From the NCBI RefSeq assembly GCF_008122265.1, contig NZ_CP043042.1, forward strand, positions 3,162,001-3,226,000: a stretch of DNA of 64,000 nucleotides. The letters are read 5' to 3'. The notes beneath the pieces were generated by a model. It searched no databases and was not told the DNA's origin. It saw only the letters and a list, made by a program, of their open reading frames with translations. The stretch comes from Marinobacter fonticola. GTDB taxonomy: Bacteria > Pseudomonadota > Gammaproteobacteria > Pseudomonadales > Oleiphilaceae. Position numbers and translations under genes: made by a program. Below, in pieces: positions 6,677 to 19,056 of the stretch; position 1 is the first letter of the stretch, and every line of letters begins with the position of its first letter.

Positions 6677-7497
6677 GTGTTTGAAGGGACGTTTGATAGC
6701 AGCACCCGGGGGTCTAAGGAGTTTTGGGCAGGTTCCGGCCCTAACTCCCCGGGGTCAAGCCATCTCCGTAGCTATCGCCGTCAAATTCAATAAGGCATAA
6801 ACCATGGCCGAACGGATCCGAGAAAGCCAGGCAGCGCGAACCGTGAATAGGTATCTCGCTCATCGCCTATCAACGGTGAATGATGAAGCACCAGAAGCGG
6901 AATCCAGTCACAGCTGCAACGGCGACATGTAACCGCGACGGTGTCAGAATCTCTTACAGCATGCATGGCAACTTATTGTAATAAAGGAAAAATTTCGTCA
7001 ATCCCTGGCCATTCCGTAATATAATGCGCATGCGTTTTAACCCTCCGTTTTAGCTCATTTGTCTCCTCTGGCTGGCAAGCCTACCCTCTCCAAAATCCGC
7101 ATGTTGCGGCCAAAAATGAACACGGCGTCATTCGTCACACGGGTCAGTCGTTTCATTACATAGGTTGTAGCAGGAACCCATCCAAAAATCGGCTCGTATG
7201 CAGCGAAACGACGCTAACAGGCGGCTCAAAACATAAAAACCCGTTAAGGGTCGACTCTAAACTAAACAAATATTAATTATATCAATGATTTATAGGCATC
7301 TTTTGACAGAATTGTTTACATATAAACGAGCACTCCCGCCGCAAAGATGTTTCGCAATTTCACAGTCACCTGTTTACTGGAGGATTTTTATCGGTGGCAC
7401 AAGCTTTGAATACCGGCGGGTGCCTCTGATAACGACGAAGCCGTTCAACTGGATGGCCCGGAGGCGTTACTCAACCAATGAAGCAGGAAGAAGCACT
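6677..7497. other. Long intergenic region with a large hairpin
   Basis: About 820 bases with no convincing gene. A two-part inverted repeat lies at 6704-6755: outer arms ACCCGGGGG / CCCCGGGGT and inner arms GGAGTT-TTGGG / CCCT-AACTCC. It lacks a T run, so it may stabilise the 3' end of the PRPP synthetase mRNA rather than terminate. Further on, AT-rich sequence (about 7255-7330) precedes the second PEP-CTERM gene and probably holds its promoter, although I find no well-spaced -35/-10 pair. Confidence 0.4.
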
Positions 7498-8136
7498 ATG
7501 CTGAAAAACCAGAAAGTACTCGCCGCCGCGGTAAGTCTGTCCTTGGCAGGCGCGGCTGGAACGGCCGCAGCAAAGCCGATCGAGGGTACCCTCCTGTTCG
7601 CAGGTCAGGCCGAATACCTGAATGAAGCCGGCAAAAAAACCGAGTCCGTTCTTGACGCTCGGGAGATACAGTTCCAATCACAGGGCGATGACACTGAAGA
7701 CAACGCGAGCCTCGTGGGTGTCGAGGGAGATTTCGCCAACACTCTGTCCATAGGCGACAGCGGCCAGTTCAATGATCTGGTTTTCAACCCGCCCTATTCT
7801 GTTGAGGGAGACAGCCTGTGGTCGTTCGGCGATTTCAGCTTCGCGCTGTCCTCCATGGAAATCGTCAACCAGGAAGAAACCTTCCTGTCGTTGTATGGCG
7901 AGGGCACCCTGAGCTCGACGCTGGAAGGCTACGAGGACACCGACTTTGTCTGGTCCTTTAGCAGTGACGCAACAGGAAACAACGGCGGAACCTTTGCGTT
8001 CTCTTCTACTGCGACAGAAAACGAGAACCCCTCGACTGATACACCGTCCGAAGTCCCCGAGCCTGCAACGCTGGCCCTGTTCGGTCTGGGCCTCGCAGGT
8101 ATTGGCGCGGCCAAAGGTCGCAAGAAGGCTGCCTGA
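7498..8136 (+). CDS. PEP-CTERM sorting-signal protein
   Basis: 212-aa predicted secreted protein. The frame is open from 7285, but ATG 7498 has an AGGAAG site and is followed by a proper signal peptide (KVLAAAVSLSLAGAAGTAAA). The body is acidic and rich in Ser, Asp and Glu with no recognised domain. The C-terminus carries VPEPATLALFGLGLAGIG then a basic KGRKKAA tail, the PEP-CTERM signal for exosortase processing. It is the second such protein in the window and shares no obvious similarity with the first outside the sorting signal. Likely an extracellular-matrix protein, by family analogy. Confidence 0.85.
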   Translation: MLKNQKVLAAAVSLSLAGAAGTAAAKPIEGTLLFAGQAEYLNEAGKKTESVLDAREIQFQSQGDDTEDNASLVGVEGDFANTLSIGDSGQFNDLVFNPPYSVEGDSLWSFGDFSFALSSMEIVNQEETFLSLYGEGTLSSTLEGYEDTDFVWSFSSDATGNNGGTFAFSSTATENENPSTDTPSEVPEPATLALFGLGLAGIGAAKGRKKAA

Positions 8137-10269: not shown

Positions 10270-11724
10270 ATGAGCAATGATAATAAGCCGACAACGACCG
10301 ATGCAGGCATACCCGTAGCCAGCGACGAAGATTCACTCTCCATCGGTCCGGACGGCCCCTTACTGCTGCACGATCACTATCTGATCGAGCAGATGGCCAA
10401 CTTCAACCGGGAGCGTATTCCCGAGCGCCAGCCCCACGCTAAGGGCGGCGGCGCATTCGGCCATTTCGAAACCACCGAGGATGTGAGCCAGTACACCAAG
10501 GCGGCGGTATTCCAGAAAGGTACCAAGACCGATGTCGTGATGCGTTTTTCTACCGTTGCGGGTGAACGCGGTAGTCCCGACACTTGGCGCGATCCTCGCG
10601 GGTTTTCCATCAAGTTCTATACCAGTGAAGGCAACTACGACATGGTGGGCAACAACACGCCGGTGTTCTTCGTCCGCGACCCGATGAAATTCCAGCACTT
10701 CATTCGCTCGCAGAAGCGTCGTGCCGACAACCACCTGCGTGACCATGACATGCAGTGGGATTTCTGGACCCTGTCGCCGGAGTCCGCTCACCAGGTCACC
10801 TGGCTGATGGGTGATCGGGGTATTCCCAAGACCTGGCGCCATATGAACGGCTATTCCAGCCACACGTATATGTGGACCAACGCCCAAGGCGAGAAATTCT
10901 GGGTCAAGTACCACTTCAAGACCGAACAGGGCATCGAGTGCCTGACTCAAGAAGATGCGGATCGCATTTGTGGTGAAGATAACGATTACCACACGCGCGA
11001 CCTGTACGAGTCCATCGACCGTGGCGAGCATCCAAGCTGGACGCTCTACATGCAGATCATGCCGTTCAAGGACGCCGAAACCTATCGGATCAATCCATTC
11101 GACCTGACCAAAGTCTGGCCGCATGACGATTATCCGCTGATTAAGGTCGGCAAGCTGACCCTTAATCGCAACCCGACCGACTACCATGCCGAGATCGAGC
11201 AAGCGGCCTTCGAACCGAACAACCTCGTGCCGGGTATCGGCATCAGTCCGGATAAAATGCTCATCGGCCGCGTGTTTTCCTATGCAGACGCGCACCGGCA
11301 CCGGCTCGGGGTCAATTACAAGCAGATTCCCGTCAACGCACCTAAGGTCCCAGTCCATAGCTACAGCAAGGACGGCGCTATGCGGATCAATAACGTATCG
11401 GATCCCGTCTACGCACCAAACTCCAAAGGTGGCCCTTCAGCCATGGGCGAGCGTTATCCGACGGACTCCACCTGGGAAACCAGTGGCAACATGGTCCGAG
11501 CCGCCTATACCCTGCGGGAAGGAGACGATGACTACAGCCAGCCTCGCGACATGATCAACAAGGTCATGGACCAGGCCGCCCGCGACCGCTTGGTGAACAA
11601 CGTGGTCGGCCACGTATCCGGCGGCGTGAAGGAACCGGTGCTGTCCCGGGTATTCGAGTACTGGAAAAACATCGACCCGGAAATCGGCGCCCGCATTGAG
11701 AAGGGCGTTAAGGAAGGCATGTAA
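10270..11724 (+). CDS. Catalase (monofunctional, haem)
   Basis: 484-aa small-subunit haem catalase, converting hydrogen peroxide to water and oxygen. The proximal active-site signature [19 protein letters not shown] contains the distal His; the Asn of [12 protein letters not shown] and the haem-ligand Tyr in [14 protein letters not shown] are all present. Length fits clade 3 catalases. There is no signal peptide, so it is cytosolic. The gene is monocistronic, with an AAGGGAG site before ATG and an intrinsic terminator after a repeat tract downstream. Peroxide-responsive control is likely but no binding site was identified. Confidence 0.97.
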
Positions 11725-12058: not shown

Positions 12059-12847
12059 ATGGATCAACTCACGTGCGTTAAGAGCGTATTTTGCTCAGAC
12101 CCTTCGTACGACCCCCGCTCGGGGCTTGTCGACGACGACATGCACGTTATTCCCTTCGAGGAACTGGGCCCCATTGTTGTGGTTTCGCCGCATCCAGACG
12201 ATGAAAGCCTTGGCTGCGGCGGGCTCATCGCTCGTTGCGCCAGCTTGGCCGTTCCGGTGACGGTGCTCGCCATGACCGATGGCGAAGCGTCGCATCCCGG
12301 TGATCGCGCTTGGCGCGTGGAACTCGCCAGCATTCGCAAGAGAGAGCAGCGTAATGCATTGAAGGTTCTGGGATTAGTTCGGCCGGACATCGTTTCGCTG
12401 GGCCTCCCCGACGGCGGCCTGCACGCGATTGAGGGACAGATGCGAGAACGCATCGTCGCCCTGATCCAGGATGTTGTCCAATCCCGAATGATTCGAAGCG
12501 TCTTTGTGCCGGCGGTTGACGATCGTCACGACGACCACCGGGAAACGGCGATGCTCATCGCCGAGGTGGTTCGACGCTGCCCCGTGGAGCATGTATTCAG
12601 CTACCAAATCTGGCCACCGGAGAAGCGTTCAGCGCGGGTTCAGGCCAACGAAACGCGCTATCACCACGATATTTCGGATTTACAACCATTGAAGCAACGT
12701 GCAATCCACGAACATCAATCCCAGTTTGCTGCGCCGGATCTTGCCCATGCCGAAGGCTTCCAGATCCCGCCTGACTTACTGGAAGCCAAGCTCAAGAACA
12801 AGGAAACCTACGCGCTGGTTAGCGACGTATCCGCATGGAGCGCATGA
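12059..12847 (+). CDS. PIG-L family deacetylase
   Basis: 262-aa LmbE/PIG-L metal-dependent deacetylase. The zinc motif HPDDESLGCGG (around residue 43) and the second metal/catalytic region VDDRHDDHRETA (around residue 156) are intact. Family members remove N-acetyl from GlcNAc-containing glycosides (GlcNAc-PI, mycothiol and bacillithiol precursors, antibiotics). AGGAGG stands 11 bases before the start. It is the first gene of a six-gene co-directional cluster with three glycosyltransferase modules and a NodS-like methyltransferase, which suggests that the substrate is an N-acetylated sugar made by its neighbours. The exact substrate is unknown. Confidence 0.93.
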   Translation: MDQLTCVKSVFCSDPSYDPRSGLVDDDMHVIPFEELGPIVVVSPHPDDESLGCGGLIARCASLAVPVTVLAMTDGEASHPGDRAWRVELASIRKREQRNALKVLGLVRPDIVSLGLPDGGLHAIEGQMRERIVALIQDVVQSRMIRSVFVPAVDDRHDDHRETAMLIAEVVRRCPVEHVFSYQIWPPEKRSARVQANETRYHHDISDLQPLKQRAIHEHQSQFAAPDLAHAEGFQIPPDLLEAKLKNKETYALVSDVSAWSA

Positions 12848-12851
12848 GGAA

Positions 12852-12879
12852 AACGCTGTGAGGTGATGTCCACAGCGTT
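12852..12879. promoter_or_regulatory. Hairpin between operon genes 1 and 2
   Basis: Perfect nine-base arms AACGCTGTG and CACAGCGTT with a ten-base loop, directly after the deacetylase stop codon, in the only sizeable gap (103 bases) of the operon. There is no T run, so it may be an mRNA processing or stability element rather than a terminator. Confidence 0.6.
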
Positions 12880-12950
12880 AGCGCCATGCGCATTGAGGCG
12901 AGAGGTATTAATGCGATGATCGCCGGCGCGCCGCATATACAAGGAAAGAT

Positions 12951-15287
12951 ATGGCCAAGGACATCACCAGAACCCAGCGTTCGTGGAGCTTGCCAGGCGA
13001 CGGTACACGTTCGGCCATCGACAGGCCGGAGAACCTACCCGTGCAAACGGGGCTGGTCATGCACATCGCGCTTCAGGGCTGTTTACGCGCCGGCGACATC
13101 CCCTACGGTTTGACGGCCGATACCGGCGGCCACATTCGCTATCTGTTAGAGCTGGTGGAAGCACTCTCGCAACGCCCTGAGGTCAGCCACCAGATCATTG
13201 TCACCCGCGCTTTTAACGACCCCAAACTCGGTGCGGACTACCATTGTCGCGAAGAAGCGTTAGGGCATAACGTCACGCTTTGGCGCTGCAATGGAAAAAC
13301 AACAGATTATCTCCCCAAGGAGGCTCTCTGGCGCGAGCTACCCACGCTGACGGAGGCGCTGATACAAAGAGTAATCCAGCACGGCGTGCGGCCCGAACTC
13401 ATACACGCACATTATGCCGATGCCGGCGTCGTTGCCCGGCATGTGGAAGAGAGATTGAGAATCCCCTACATTTTTACGGCGCACTCTCTGGGCGCATCCA
13501 AAGCCCGGCACCAGCCTGAAGCCGGGATTGCCAGCAAACCTTTGAGACGCCGCATCCTCTCCGAGGAAAGCGCCATCGAGCGCGCTCGATGGCTCGTTGC
13601 CAGTTCGGAACATGAAGCTCGCATCCAGTACGGCATGTACCGGCACCACGATTCAGGCAAGACGCTCGTCAATCCGCCAGGTTGCGAGTTGGCGCAGTTC
13701 CGCAACCCCGCACCAAGGGTATACGCGAATCAGGTCGACACGTCGCTACGACGCTTCCTCCGTCACCCCGAGCGGCCCTGTCTGCTGGCTATCGCGCGCC
13801 CCGTAGCAAAAAAGAACCTGCAAACACTGTTACGAGCTTACGGCGAGAGTCCTGAACTCCGCGAGAAGGCCAACCTGGTCATCTATGCCGGTACCCGCCA
13901 CGATATTGACTCCGGCGAGTCCGAAGCGCGGGACGTCTGGCTGGAACTATTGAAGTTAATCGACGACTACGACCTCTATGGCCTGGTTGCCTACCCCAAA
14001 CAGCATCAATTTCATCACATCCCGGCGATCTACCAGTGGGCCGCCCAGCGCCGGGGCGTGTTTGTGAATCCAGCGCTCAATGAACCCTTTGGATTGACTT
14101 TACTCGAAGCGGCGGCGGCCGGCCTGCCGGTGGTCGCCACACGGGAAGGCGGCCCCGTCGATATCGTTCGCCGCTGCGGCAATGGGCGCGTTATCCCACC
14201 CACCGATGCCAAGGCTATCGGCGAGGCTTGTCTCCAGATTCTGTCCGACGATGTGGGATGGCGACGGCTTAGCGCTTGCGGACAGAAGAACGTCGGATTT
14301 TACACCTGGACACGGCACGCCCAGCAATACGTGAATGAGCTGAACATAGGCCAGCCCCCGGCGCCGGCCCGATCCGACCACAGGCCAGACTCCGAACTAT
14401 TGGCATGCGAACACTTACTCGCCTGCGATATGGACGGCACATTGCTAGGCCACCGCGCAGGTCTTCAACGGCTTCGGCACTGGCTCGTGAGCAACCGCCA
14501 ATTCTTGTTCGTGGTAGCCACGGGCCGTTCCGCGCCGGAGGCGCTGGCCGAACTTGAAGCCTGGTCTGCGCCACTACCGGATTTCCTGATCGCCGATGTG
14601 GGCTCGTCAATCTACCGGATAGATGCGCAGGGACGGCCTCGCCTGCTTCCTTCTTGGCAACGTCAACTGGACGAAGGCTGGCAACGCGCGTCTTGTCAAC
14701 AACGGCTCGATCGTTTGGAAGACATCCTGTTGCAACCGGCACAGACCCAGTCGGCTTATAAGTTGAGCTATTACACCGATAGCGCCAAGGTCCCCACAGC
14801 CATACTTGTCGCTCGAGTCGAACGCACACTTGCGGAAGCTGGCCTGGAGGCCCGGGTGGTGCACTCCCACGGCCATCTTTTGGACATTCTTCCAGCACGT
14901 AGCGGCAAAGCCCTGGCGGTGGATTTTCTGCGCCGGCGGTTCAGTATGAATCGCCAACAGATCGTTGCCGCAGGCGATTCCGGCAACGATGAGGACCTCA
15001 TGCGCTACGCAGCATTGGGCATCGTCGTGGCCAACCACAGCCATGAGCTCGATGCCCTGCGGGCGTGTGACAACATCTACTGGGCGCGGTCTGAAAGCGC
15101 GTCCGGCATTCTCGAAGGCCTAAACCACCGCGAGAACAGTCTCGACGGTCGCCACGTCCAAGCATCGACAGTCGGCCGGCCACGCGCACCATTGGAGGCT
15201 GCCGAGGAACAAACAACTCAATCCAAAACCGAACTTGCCAAAGCCGACCTTGAAAGCGGCACCACGGGTATCGAAGCAGGAGCTTGA
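12951..15287 (+). CDS. Sucrose-phosphate-synthase-like glycosyltransferase fused to HAD phosphatase
   Basis: 778-aa two-domain protein. Residues ~35-470 form a GT4 transferase of the sucrose-phosphate synthase type: GLTADTGGHIRYLLELVEAL, HAHYADAG (about 151), TAHSLG, and the donor-site ENPFGL-type motif NEPFGLTLLEAAAAGLPVV (about 376). Residues ~485-740 form a HAD phosphatase of the sucrose-phosphatase type, with nucleophile loop DMDGTLLG (about 491), VVATGRS, a Lys in ARSGKALAV and GDSGNDEDL (about 675), so it looks catalytically complete. The predicted role is to transfer a sugar to a sugar phosphate and then dephosphorylate the product, giving sucrose or a related glycoside. The neighbours argue for something other than plain osmolyte sucrose. 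AAGGAAAG precedes the ATG. Confidence 0.9.
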   Translation: MAKDITRTQRSWSLPGDGTRSAIDRPENLPVQTGLVMHIALQGCLRAGDIPYGLTADTGGHIRYLLELVEALSQRPEVSHQIIVTRAFNDPKLGADYHCREEALGHNVTLWRCNGKTTDYLPKEALWRELPTLTEALIQRVIQHGVRPELIHAHYADAGVVARHVEERLRIPYIFTAHSLGASKARHQPEAGIASKPLRRRILSEESAIERARWLVASSEHEARIQYGMYRHHDSGKTLVNPPGCELAQFRNPAPRVYANQVDTSLRRFLRHPERPCLLAIARPVAKKNLQTLLRAYGESPELREKANLVIYAGTRHDIDSGESEARDVWLELLKLIDDYDLYGLVAYPKQHQFHHIPAIYQWAAQRRGVFVNPALNEPFGLTLLEAAAAGLPVVATREGGPVDIVRRCGNGRVIPPTDAKAIGEACLQILSDDVGWRRLSACGQKNVGFYTWTRHAQQYVNELNIGQPPAPARSDHRPDSELLACEHLLACDMDGTLLGHRAGLQRLRHWLVSNRQFLFVVATGRSAPEALAELEAWSAPLPDFLIADVGSSIYRIDAQGRPRLLPSWQRQLDEGWQRASCQQRLDRLEDILLQPAQTQSAYKLSYYTDSAKVPTAILVARVERTLAEAGLEARVVHSHGHLLDILPARSGKALAVDFLRRRFSMNRQQIVAAGDSGNDEDLMRYAALGIVVANHSHELDALRACDNIYWARSESASGILEGLNHRENSLDGRHVQASTVGRPRAPLEAAEEQTTQSKTELAKADLESGTTGIEAGA

Positions 15288-15288
15288 T

Positions 15289-16533
15289 ATGTCCTCACTA
15301 CAAACCGTCGTAAACGACATGGCATTCGCCCGGCGTCCGGTGGGGTATTTTGTCCACCATCACGGGCACGGGCATGCCAAGCGCTGCTTGGCGATCACCC
15401 GGCAAATGCACCCCCGCCCCGTGACGATTTTCTGCGCCAAGCCGGAAATTTTTCCAGACCTGCCGGACAACGCGAACATCGTGCGGATACCTGATTTCCA
15501 CGGCAAACAGGCGCGATCGGAACAGTTGCACAACCAGCCGGCCTGTCTTGCCCTGGATTGCGCCCCCGTCGGCGTATCGGCGATTCGCGGCACCGGCGGC
15601 ATCATCGCGTCCTGGCTCGCCCGCGAGGATCCGGCCCTGTTTGTCGTGGACGTGTCGGCAGAACTGGCTCTGCTTGGCCGCATCTGTAGTGTGCCGGTGG
15701 TGAAAATCCGTATGCATGGCGATAGGGGCGATCAGGCGCATCAAGCTGCCTACTCAGCTTGCGCAGCTATGCTGGCGCCTTACGATGCCTCCCTGGAGCA
15801 GGCGGATTGGCCGTCCCATTTCCGCCAGCGCACCTTCTATACCGGCGGCCTTATCGATACCAGCGTGGCTGTGCCGAGCAAAGCCGAAGCCCGGGAGCGC
15901 CTGGGTTTATCGCAAGACCAGCACATTTTTACCGTTGTAGCCGGCAACGGCGGCGTAGGCATTCCCATTGCCCCCGTGACACTCGCTGCCCGTGCCTATC
16001 CGGATGCCCTGTGGCTCACGGTCGGAAAAACGGTGCGCTATGGCCACGAAACGGATTTCTCCAATCTGATGGATGTGGGCTGGGTCGACAACGTCAACGA
16101 TTACCTGGCTGCAGCCGACGTGGTGGTAGCAACGCCAGGCGACACCCTAACTCATGAGATCGCTCGAGTTGGCAGGCCGCTCATTTGTATCCCCGAGTGG
16201 TGCTATTACGACGAACAGGCATGCAAAGCCCAAGCCCTCGAGGCGCGTAATCTTGCGGCCTATTCACCCACTTGGCCTGCCAGCTTCGAGCAGTGGCGGC
16301 AGCTGGTTGCTCGGGCCAACGATTGCGACATACCCAGTCAGCACCTGCTGGTTGACGATCAGGCGGCTCGTCGCGCCGCGGATTATCTCGAGGGTCTGAT
16401 CCGCGACCTCTGGCTTGAAAGCCGGCCCGATGAACTGGCGGAAGATGAGCTTCCGGGTCTCCACCGAGCGATGACCGCCTCGCCTGCCCCGGCCAGTACG
16501 GCGTACGAAGAAACGGTTCCCGGCTCGGAATGA
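15289..16533 (+). CDS. GT28/UGT-like glycosyltransferase
   Basis: 414-aa GT-B fold transferase. The ATG at 15289 lies one base after the stop of the preceding gene with CAGGAGC before it; the frame is open from 15235. The N-terminus has the family-type acceptor motif GYFVHHHGHGHAKR. The C-terminal half carries the donor-binding region VVVATPGDTLTHEIARVGRP followed by the CIPEW loop, similar to MurG and UDP-glycosyltransferases. It presumably transfers a nucleotide sugar to the product of the upstream fused enzyme. It overlaps the next gene by four bases (ATGA), implying translational coupling. Donor and acceptor are not readable. Confidence 0.85.
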   Translation: MSSLQTVVNDMAFARRPVGYFVHHHGHGHAKRCLAITRQMHPRPVTIFCAKPEIFPDLPDNANIVRIPDFHGKQARSEQLHNQPACLALDCAPVGVSAIRGTGGIIASWLAREDPALFVVDVSAELALLGRICSVPVVKIRMHGDRGDQAHQAAYSACAAMLAPYDASLEQADWPSHFRQRTFYTGGLIDTSVAVPSKAEARERLGLSQDQHIFTVVAGNGGVGIPIAPVTLAARAYPDALWLTVGKTVRYGHETDFSNLMDVGWVDNVNDYLAAADVVVATPGDTLTHEIARVGRPLICIPEWCYYDEQACKAQALEARNLAAYSPTWPASFEQWRQLVARANDCDIPSQHLLVDDQAARRAADYLEGLIRDLWLESRPDELAEDELPGLHRAMTASPAPASTAYEETVPGSE

Positions 16534-17441
16534 CGTCCATGGTCGACATGCAAGACAGCGGGCATACACCCAAAGCCAGCGTTTTAACGCTGGTACGGGG
16601 CCGGCAAGCGCATCTCGATGCGCTCGTCGAAGGTCTGCAAAAGCAGACCGAACCGGAGTTCGAGCTGGTCATAGCAAGCATGCAGCCCGAGCCTCCGAGG
16701 GTCAGGTCCGGCCTGCCCTTCCCGGTATCCATCGTCACGATACCGGGGGATAAACTGCCGTTGGCCGCGGCGAGAAACGCCGCAGCTAAAGCGGCCCGTT
16801 CCGACCGGCTTGTCTTCCTCGACGTCGACTGCATTCCCAGCCCCGGCCTGGTCCGCCAGTATGTTCGTCAGCTCGGCGACTCAGGCCGGTGCCTGCTCGG
16901 TGAAGTGCGGTACCTGCCGGGCACCGTTCCGGCCTGCCAGTTAACATCGGCCACCTTTGCCGATCTCGCAGCACGGGCACTTCGTCACCCTGCGCGGCCT
17001 GCCCTGCACGGCAATGCCTGGATCGACGAGCCTGAACACCGGGCGCTCTGGGGACTTTCATTTGCGCTCAGCCGGCAACAATACCTGGCTGCGGGCGGCA
17101 TGGATGAACGCTACGTGGGCTATGGCGGCGAGGAGACCGACTTCGCCGAGCGGCTCGCGGCAAGTGGAATCCGCTTGGCGTGGTGCCCTCATGCACTGGC
17201 CCTTCATCAATATCATCCGGTCTATACGCCGCCCCTGGACCGGTTCGACGACATTCTCGATAACGCCACCCGCTTCCATGGCACCTGGGGCAGTTGGTGC
17301 ATGGAGTACTGGCTCGACTATTTTGTCCGCCACGGCCTCATTCGCTGGACACCCGGGGCTGAACAGATTGAGATTCTACGACGCCCCACGCCAGGGGAGA
17401 TCGAAGCCTGCCGACAAACACCGGAGGTTGCCTTCGCATGA
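16530..17441 (+). CDS. GT2-family glycosyltransferase
   Basis: 303-aa GT-A fold transferase. SVLTLVRGRQAHLDALVEGL opens the domain; the metal-binding DxD region is VFLDVDCIPSPG (about residue 95); a galactosyltransferase-type C-terminal motif WGLSFALSRQQYLAAGGMDE then GYGGEETDFAERL follows (residues ~174-210). No membrane segment is seen, so it acts in the cytosol. It overlaps both neighbours by four bases, so it is firmly inside the operon. The sugar donor is unknown; the C-terminal motif is shared with polypeptide and proteoglycan galactosyl/GalNAc-transferases and with bacterial GT2 enzymes. Confidence 0.9.
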   Translation: MTSMVDMQDSGHTPKASVLTLVRGRQAHLDALVEGLQKQTEPEFELVIASMQPEPPRVRSGLPFPVSIVTIPGDKLPLAAARNAAAKAARSDRLVFLDVDCIPSPGLVRQYVRQLGDSGRCLLGEVRYLPGTVPACQLTSATFADLAARALRHPARPALHGNAWIDEPEHRALWGLSFALSRQQYLAAGGMDERYVGYGGEETDFAERLAASGIRLAWCPHALALHQYHPVYTPPLDRFDDILDNATRFHGTWGSWCMEYWLDYFVRHGLIRWTPGAEQIEILRRPTPGEIEACRQTPEVAFA

Positions 17442-18037
17442 CATCGCATACTCAAGCATTTTCGCCGGATACTTCTCCTGAATTCTTCGAAAGCCTATAC
17501 CGCAATTCGGAGGACCCGTGGGACTTTCGTTCCTCCGCCTACGAGCGTAACCGTTATAGCGATATCGTCGGAGGCATTAACGACCGACACTACACCAACG
17601 CATTCGAACCCGGCTGCGCCATCGGCGAGCTGACGGCCCTGCTCGCACCCTACTGCCAGTCGCTGCACGCCATGGATTGCTCAGCGGCCGCTGTCCAAAG
17701 CGCACAGCGTCGATGCGACGAGTTTGCCCACGTTGATATACGCAAAGGCAGTTTGCCGGGCGATCTCCCAGGGCAGACCTTCGACCTGATCGTATTTTCG
17801 GAAGTGGGCTACTACTTCACGCGCCACGATCTTGCCCTGCTAGTGGCTCGCCTATGGACACGACTGAAACCCGGTGGACGGATAATCGCCTGTCATTGGC
17901 TTGGTTCCTCCAGGGATCACCGTCTCCACGGGTCGGTGGTACACCAAACCATGGATCAGGTCATTCGCACGCCTGGGGACTTCGATATCGCGAACCCGGG
18001 CTACGCGCTAAAACGCTGGACCAAACCGGGAAGCTAA
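17438..18037 (+). CDS. NodS-like SAM-dependent methyltransferase
   Basis: 199-aa class I methyltransferase resembling nodulation protein S. Its start FFESLYRNSEDPWDFRSSAY is typical of the NodS family, followed by the SAM-binding loop FEPGCAIGELTALLAPY (about residue 58) and the acidic post-loop MDCSAAAV. NodS N-methylates the free amine of a deacetylated glucosamine in lipochitooligosaccharides; by analogy this enzyme could methylate an amine exposed by the PIG-L deacetylase of the same operon. It overlaps the upstream gene by four bases. That functional link is inference. Confidence 0.88.
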   Translation: MTSHTQAFSPDTSPEFFESLYRNSEDPWDFRSSAYERNRYSDIVGGINDRHYTNAFEPGCAIGELTALLAPYCQSLHAMDCSAAAVQSAQRRCDEFAHVDIRKGSLPGDLPGQTFDLIVFSEVGYYFTRHDLALLVARLWTRLKPGGRIIACHWLGSSRDHRLHGSVVHQTMDQVIRTPGDFDIANPGYALKRWTKPGS

Positions 18038-18039
18038 CC

Positions 18040-19056
18040 ATGGACGACACCGCTCTCAACCGGGTACTGGCCGCGTTGCCGCCTACACCCAGCGCTGACG
18101 ATTACCGGCATATCGCGCATCAGCTATTGCCGTATATTCAGGCTGAGGTGCCGGCTATGGGCGAAGGCGAAAGCCTCGAACGGCTTCGCTTTTTGATGCA
18201 GGTGGCGCGCCGTGATCTGGGTCTTGCCCGAATCATCGAGGGCCATCTCGATGCGACACAGATCCTGTATGAAGCCCGGCATCCTTTGCACGACGAGTCG
18301 CTTTACGGCATATGGGCATCGGGCGGGCCCGCCGATTCCACACAAATCGACCACGACAGCCCGACGGGATCCGGCAAACTGTTGGGCAGCAAACCCTTTT
18401 GTAGCGGCTCGGACATCGTCGATCGGGCCTTGGTCTATATCTATTCCAGCGAACAGTTGATCGACATCGACATGCGGAGCGCCGCGGCTGAAAGCAGGCT
18501 CCACTTCGAGGCGGAACACTGGAAAGCGCCGGCCTTTGCCGAGACCCATACCTGGACCGTCGCCTTCGATAGCCTACTGGTTCGTCCAACGCAGCGCATT
18601 GGCCAGCCCAGATGGTACTTCGAACGGCCCGGTTTCTGTCTCGGGGCTTTGGCACCCGCTGCATGCTGGGCAGGCGGCGCCTTCGGCCTGGTTGACCATG
18701 TGCGGCAGCAGACTCTTAAAAACGGCCACGCCAAGGCCCACCTCGGTGCCATGGTCGCGGCAACGACGAGCATGCGGACGATGCTCGCATGGGGAGCGGA
18801 GCGGATCGATGCCGACCCCGGCAACGACGGTGGGCACCTGTTTCCAACGGCGCTGCTCGTTCGGCATCATATCGAGCGCGGTTGTGCCGATATCCTGGAC
18901 CGCTTCGGCCGGACACTCGGGCCGCGGCCCTTGGCGTTCGATGCTGAGAACGCCCGTCGTGTTAGCGAGCTCAGCCTCTATATGCGTCAATGTCATGCCG
19001 AGAGCGATCTGGAAGAGCTCGGGGTTCACCTGGAAAAGCACCCCGGCTTCCCTTGA
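18040..19056 (+). CDS. Short acyl-CoA-dehydrogenase-like protein
   Basis: 338-aa protein starting two bases after the methyltransferase stop; an overlapping longer frame from 17854 runs through the methyltransferase and is not credible. It has a weak acyl-CoA dehydrogenase fold: middle beta domain (GSKPFCSGSDIVDRALVYIY) and C-terminal helical bundle ending LGPRPLAFDAENARRVSELS then LYMRQCHAESDLEELG. It is shorter than the usual 380 aa, and I could not assign the catalytic Glu. From memory such proteins recur beside PIG-L, NodS-like and GT2 genes in other proteobacteria. It may oxidise a sugar or an amine rather than an acyl-CoA. Last gene of the operon, convergent with the next. Confidence 0.75.
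   Translation: MDDTALNRVLAALPPTPSADDYRHIAHQLLPYIQAEVPAMGEGESLERLRFLMQVARRDLGLARIIEGHLDATQILYEARHPLHDESLYGIWASGGPADSTQIDHDSPTGSGKLLGSKPFCSGSDIVDRALVYIYSSEQLIDIDMRSAAAESRLHFEAEHWKAPAFAETHTWTVAFDSLLVRPTQRIGQPRWYFERPGFCLGALAPAACWAGGAFGLVDHVRQQTLKNGHAKAHLGAMVAATTSMRTMLAWGAERIDADPGNDGGHLFPTALLVRHHIERGCADILDRFGRTLGPRPLAFDAENARRVSELSLYMRQCHAESDLEELGVHLEKHPGFP

Follow-up and report, generated by a model that had tools for sequence, protein, structure and literature searches.

A six-gene operon of Marinobacter fonticola joins a sucrose-phosphate-synthase-like glycosyltransferase module to a deacetylase, methyltransferase and flavoprotein trio

A 64,000-nucleotide stretch of Marinobacter fonticola DNA (the window) carries, at positions 12059 to 19056, an operon of two joined modules whose enzymes probably link several sugars and then, on one of these, strip, methylate and perhaps oxidize a nitrogen. 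The first module, core B, has a sucrose-phosphate synthase (SPS)-like GT4 glycosyltransferase with a HAD phosphatase in the same chain, together with GT28-like and GT2 transferases. The second, module A or the trio, consists of a PIG-L deacetylase, a NodS-like methyltransferase and a flavoprotein of acyl-CoA dehydrogenase (ACAD) fold. All of these parts belong to known families, and our direct observations are confined to the gene set, the retained motifs and the recurrent physical coupling of the modules. The six open frames lie on the plus strand with gaps of +103, +1, -4, -4 and +2 bases in gene order, a tight operon spacing that agrees with the gaps of -4 to +2 after the first given in a preliminary description of this DNA. 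The family assignments made there also held for the first five genes; the last protein matched neither Pfam nor NCBIfam at 1e-3, and its ACAD fold was read from a structural model. The host genome is a single contig of 4.54 Mb, with Marinobacter as the closest named relatives.

Relatives were encoded in 408 stretches of named genomes, of which the 80 best served as loci. Four of these, all from Marinobacter (L002 to L005), carried all six genes in identical order, and the arrangement is thus beyond chance. In three of the four the genes were continuous without a large gap; in L005 (22-7783, Marinobacter sp. ATCH36), the PIG-L gene lay about 6.9 kb upstream of the SPS-like gene, with several frames in between. 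Among the loci read, the full six-gene row with the SPS-like gene was seen only in Marinobacter relatives, so a widely conserved six-gene unit was not supported in these loci, and the operon is better described as a join of two modules. Some hits outside Marinobacter agree in the length of their longest contig (13501 for P0054, P0179 and P0347), which suggests the full set elsewhere. The SPS-like protein scored above 700 bits in 69 of the 80 loci, with a weaker and divided version in L018; in L017 (11993-14014, Qipengyuania pacifica), the assembly shows the SPS-like frame split in two.

The coupling of the trio to the glycosyltransferase and phosphatase module recurred outside Marinobacter in several arrangements. 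A complete trio was present in 10 of the 80 loci (L002 to L005, L012, L014, L016, L049, L061 and L064), and partial trios were found in L035, which is cut by the locus end, in L070, which has the deacetylase and methyltransferase and no ACAD-like gene, and in L018, which has an ACAD match alone. The trio lay approximately 2 to 8 kb from core B in seven non-Marinobacter loci (L012, L014, L016, L049, L061, L064 and L163). The SPS-like, GT2, GT28-like and deacetylase-methyltransferase frames were consecutive on one strand in L070 (titled Aureimonas frigidaquae), and two loci from sampled genomes (L160 and L162) carried a GT4 gene with a weak SPS match followed consecutively, on one strand, by GT2, GT28-like, ACAD-like, PIG-L, methyltransferase and GT2 genes. 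Deacetylase and methyltransferase shared a single open frame in L049, L061, L064 and L070 (checked with Pfam for L064). Near the cluster of L064 (4699-8100, Jiella mangrovi) there was also a P450-reductase fusion protein.

The association was visible at the level of whole genomes as well. In 398 sampled Pseudomonadota genomes, the ACAD-like profile reached at least 58 bits in 32 and the GT28 profile at least 239 bits in 15, and an ACAD-like gene occurred in 13 of the 15 GT28-positive genomes versus 19 of the 383 others (Fisher 4e-14), with bit thresholds picked after the scores had been seen and with related genomes that are not independent. Because at most four or five candidates were scored per genome, these counts are lower bounds, as is that from an alphaproteobacterial sample, where at least 3 of 385 genomes had an ACAD-like gene at 1e-12. 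Within the host family, 5 of 121 genomes, host included, carried the GT28-like gene. Twenty stretches fetched from sampled genomes, 18 of them around an ACAD-like gene, brought the total to 100 loci, which were annotated with HMMs whose seeds were window proteins or came from loci that were afterwards searched. Around the ACAD-like gene, the methyltransferase adjoined in all 18 stretches and PIG-L in 17 (it was not found in L153). The trio was present in 27 of the 100 loci and occurs in several families of Pseudomonadota; 25 of the 27 also had a GT2 gene of one of three kinds, with none in L146 and L155. These numbers bear out the earlier statement that a PIG-L, NodS-like, GT2 and ACAD-like set recurs. 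A second PIG-L gene followed the trio in L146 (11308-12123), and L145 also has one.

The ACAD tree had three parts: the alphaproteobacterial proteins on the core B side together with L160 to L162 (support 98/95), the Pseudomonas-type proteins (99/96), and Marinobacter with other proteins (98/97). The latter two grouped together (97/96), L018 fell outside on a very long branch, and the branch of L016 was also long. Scores of the window proteins were higher against the Pseudomonas-type loci L145 to L159 than against the alphaproteobacterial core-B-side loci (104 to 136 versus 44 to 67 bits for the ACAD-like protein, 94 to 132 versus 56 to 89 bits for the methyltransferase); against L160 to L162 they were 60 to 67 and 97 to 125 bits, respectively. 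Coupling to core B was present in the alphaproteobacterial and Marinobacter parts of the tree and was not seen in the Pseudomonas-type part; either this coupling is ancient and was later lost, or it has arisen twice.

The SPS-like protein (778 amino acids, 12951-15287, plus strand) matched PF00534 (2.4e-20) and, in its S6PP-type HAD part, PF05116 (2.4e-60). It stayed below the NCBIfam cut-offs for TIGR02472 (445.6 versus 576 bits) and TIGR02471 (183.4 versus 209.75 bits), as did all five core B relatives examined with it, and the TIGR02472 cut-off was reached in 1 of 14 control genomes. In TeSPS, the glucose donor and phosphates are contacted by His158, Glu331, Arg105, Arg178, Arg249 and Arg253, and Gln51 bonds to fructose, according to a section of PMC7264703. 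The alignment showed that the window protein retains the catalytic His and Glu and the arginines at positions 178 and 249, and has Lys in place of Arg105 and Arg253. The donor-side motifs HSLG and E.FG....E were found in 69 and 70 of 70 SPS-like proteins, and the HAD motifs DxDxT and GDSGND in 70 and 68. The N-terminal acceptor loop reads GGH in all 70 (69 by pattern and L006 by eye) and GGQ in 2r60 and 4rbn, where the Gln appears to correspond to Gln51 of TeSPS. We read this as an altered acceptor, although one residue is no proof; the six proteins below the sucrose cut-offs and the change from Gln to His in 70 of 70 make plain sucrose a doubtful product. Apart from this protein, nothing in the host genome matched SPS above 39 bits, and a search aimed at GH32, other sucrose enzymes not having been sought, revealed no sucrose hydrolase of that family.

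The two remaining transferases follow directly. The GT28-like protein (414 amino acids, 15289-16533, plus strand) had no Pfam match and a weak match to MurG TIGR01133 (1.5e-4); many of its listed relatives bear PF04101, and its model (pLDDT 84.7) gave GT1/GT28-type structural matches, consistent with a GT-B fold. One relative of 602 amino acids (P0039) also bears GT2-type Pfam domains. A second GT28-like subfamily (approximately 240 to 260 bits) with its own GT2 was observed in L160, L161, L162 and L164 and adjoins the trio in L160 to L162. The GT2 protein (303 amino acids, 16530-17441, plus strand) matched PF02709 (4.9e-10), PF10111 and PF00535, and was similar to EpsD (5.4e-16) and MftF.

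The PIG-L deacetylase (262 amino acids, 12059-12847, plus strand) exceeded the PF02585 cut-off (6.4e-26) and has both metal-site motifs, HPDDE and RHDDH; its best solved relatives were 3wl4 (titled uncharacterized) and a diacetylchitobiose deacetylase (1.7e-15). Across the 27 trio loci, the HPDDE-type motif was found in 25, and the HxDH-type motif in 14 by a strict pattern and in 27 by a looser one. The methyltransferase (199 amino acids, 17438-18037, plus strand) passed PF05401 (66.4 versus 24 bits, 4e-18) and scored 73.8 versus 300 bits for the NodS equivalog NF041650, with 4isc (1.6e-24) and NodS 3ofj (3.9e-14) as solved relatives. Its glycine motif was poorly captured by our pattern (4 of 27 trio loci), and we drew no inference from it. 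The sugar-transfer, dephosphorylation and deacetylation steps named in the preliminary description have their corresponding motifs retained.

The ACAD-fold protein (338 amino acids, start at 18040, 18040-19056, plus strand) is a candidate flavin monooxygenase. Its model (pLDDT 93.6) has the ACAD fold (Foldseek E of about 1e-11), and 27 of the 50 Foldseek matches listed were monooxygenases or their kin (15 DszC/TdsC, 2 MsuC, 1 other flavin-containing monooxygenase, 7 nitrososynthases and 2 KijD3); the rest included 5 titled acyl-CoA dehydrogenase and 4 ColB1, with the others different or unlabeled. Identity in the structural alignments was 11 to 18%. In the profile search, three DszC sequences came first (7-8e-5), and TdsC (0.016) and MsuC (0.25) appeared later. 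The Ser of an FCSG motif aligns with DszC, and an FCSG-like motif was present in 26 of the 27 trio loci. PMC11134501 describes a Ser/His pair presumed to act on the flavin in DszA, as for DszC, and a contribution of His391 of DszC to the protonation of oxygen. In the C-terminal loop, the window protein has RQCHAESD, the Pseudomonas type RQ[ST]H[AG][ED] and the alphaproteobacterial type mostly RQ[AP]xPD. Some relatives matched PF00441 or PF02770.

Combining these families and residues, we tentatively propose, with a little less than even confidence, that the product is a small cytosolic amino-oligosaccharide made in five steps that end in amine hydroxylation. The SPS-like GT4 would transfer a hexose from its nucleotide-sugar donor onto a phosphorylated sugar, and the HAD domain in the same chain would dephosphorylate the result to a disaccharide near sucrose, perhaps not sucrose itself. 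The GT28-like and GT2 enzymes would each add one sugar, one of them an N-acetylhexosamine, from which PIG-L would remove the acetyl group; the NodS-like enzyme would then methylate the freed amine. In the last and least certain step, the ACAD-fold protein may hydroxylate the amine with reduced flavin from a reductase encoded elsewhere. We prefer N-oxygenation and do not regard it as established, since the sequence leans somewhat to flavin monooxygenases but the fold scores tie. The oxidation foreseen in the preliminary description can be sharpened to a possible flavin monooxygenation.

Several observations weigh against this pathway. The VIA-align Z scores were 30.6 to 32.1 for DszC/TdsC, 31.0 for isovaleryl-CoA dehydrogenases and 30.1 for KijD3; CarC, an ACAD-type reductase subunit, came next after DszC in the profile search (1.3e-3); the C-terminal loop His is absent in one clade; no flavin reductase is found among the six genes; and an acid (Glu or Asp), which may be a dehydrogenase base, is retained in that loop in all trio loci read. 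The same pathway might end with a dehydrogenase or oxidase that converts, for example, an amine or N-methylamine to an imine. The tied scores, the retained acid, the four matches to ColB1 (titled cysteine dehydrogenating flavoprotein) and the PF00441 or PF02770 matches of some relatives speak for such an enzyme, but we consider it unlikely, if still a serious competitor, given that DszC tops the profile search and the FCSG-like motif is so widely retained. Furthermore, a complete trio was missing from the stretch read in most core B loci (70 of 80), and Pseudomonas-type trio loci had no core B, from which it follows that the modules also work apart. Two independent pathways could share the operon, with core B making a sucrose-like compatible solute and the trio modifying another amino compound. 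The occurrence of each module without the other agrees with this, as does the ACAD tree, where the Marinobacter proteins and those of the alphaproteobacterial core-B side fall into separate deep parts; the repeated coupling, the 13 of 15 versus 19 of 383 genomes and the failure of all six SPS-like proteins to pass the SPS cut-offs make it rather unlikely.

A surface glycan or lipid-linked sugar would account for three glycosyltransferases and for the EpsD and MftF similarities of the GT2 protein, but neither the six genes nor the ten neighbors scanned include a flippase, polymerase or lipid-carrier transferase, and an SPS-like GT4 with a phosphatase would point to a soluble sugar phosphate acceptor; we hold this product to be improbable. 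A mycothiol- or bacillithiol-like thiol cofactor is most improbable of all: PIG-L reached 76.7 bits to BshB1 and the GT4 94.5 bits to MshA, both far under the cut-offs (182.5 and 462.5), and, in agreement with the preliminary description, none of the six genes matched a family of thiol ligases in the Pfam and NCBIfam scans.

If the amino-oligosaccharide pathway holds, deacetylation, N-methylation and N-oxygenation on one amine would yield an N-methyl-N-hydroxylamine. It is conceivable, though distinctly doubtful, that this oligosaccharide, or a nitrone or nitroxide derived from it, is a redox-active radical scavenger built from sugars and produced under stress, a thought to which the catalase near the trio in several lineages contributes. 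On the same strand, the gene next upstream of the operon (10270-11724) encodes a catalase, and catalase was found in 4 of the 27 trio loci (L012, L016, L161 and L162) versus 0 of the 73 others. The trio of L146 comes after one gene of the alpha-amylase family and one of isoamylase type, which we read as trehalose/glycogen genes. Together, these neighbors are weak hints that suggest a stress-protective role; the four other Marinobacter loci have no catalase. Control by EcfG was not supported: the promoter GGAAC-N16/17-CGTT gave 7 sites among the 64 loci whose titles we took as alphaproteobacterial versus 14 in one shuffled set, and sites stood upstream of a cluster gene only in L018 (2), while 16 other loci had 2 sites and none upstream. 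Between 11600 and 19250, no sigma-70-type promoter was found (3.3 expected), and terminators numbered 7 (6.3 expected). A search for anti-phage defense matched only the methyltransferase (mad2, 4.8e-13), which we took as a generic domain. The window contains no tRNA and no Rfam match, and encodes at 7285-8136 a protein with a PEP-CTERM sorting motif. No publication on these genes as a set or on their product turned up in open-licence PMC text, in line with the earlier remark that no product has been assigned.

The coupling of the trio to a sucrose-like core in Marinobacter and alphaproteobacteria offers a compact six-gene system for pathway rebuilding and product identification, and, should the pathway end in N-oxygenation, bacterial sugars would gain an unexpected chemistry. 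Bacterial SPS with a fused phosphatase likewise has a GT4 and an S6PP-type HAD in one chain with the donor His and Glu retained, and the addition of further sugars to a core of sucrose type has a precedent in glucosylsucrose synthase TeGSS, which extends sucrose (PMC9909042). The operon protein differs in falling under the TIGR02472 and TIGR02471 cut-offs, in having GGH for GGQ in its N-terminal loop and in being coupled to a deacetylase, a methyltransferase and a flavoprotein. In Nod factor synthesis, NodB deacetylates glucosamine and NodS then N-methylates it. The same logic is proposed here with a NodS-like methyltransferase; however, that enzyme is under the NodS equivalog cut-off, the deacetylase is PIG-L rather than NodB type, and the six genes include no acyl transferase or chitin synthase. 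The nitrososynthases (ORF36 3mxl, DnmZ and KijD3) and DszC/TdsC share the fold of the candidate monooxygenase and are among the 50 listed Foldseek matches, with FCSG common to DszC, whereas the operon protein is shorter and has 11 to 18% identity, and one clade of its relatives lacks the loop His. Mycothiol and bacillithiol pathways also begin with a GT4 and use a PIG-L deacetylase later. Unlike them, the operon has MshA/BshA and MshB/BshB scores that are all below the equivalog cut-offs and no thiol-adding enzyme was seen; it has methylation and flavin chemistry instead.

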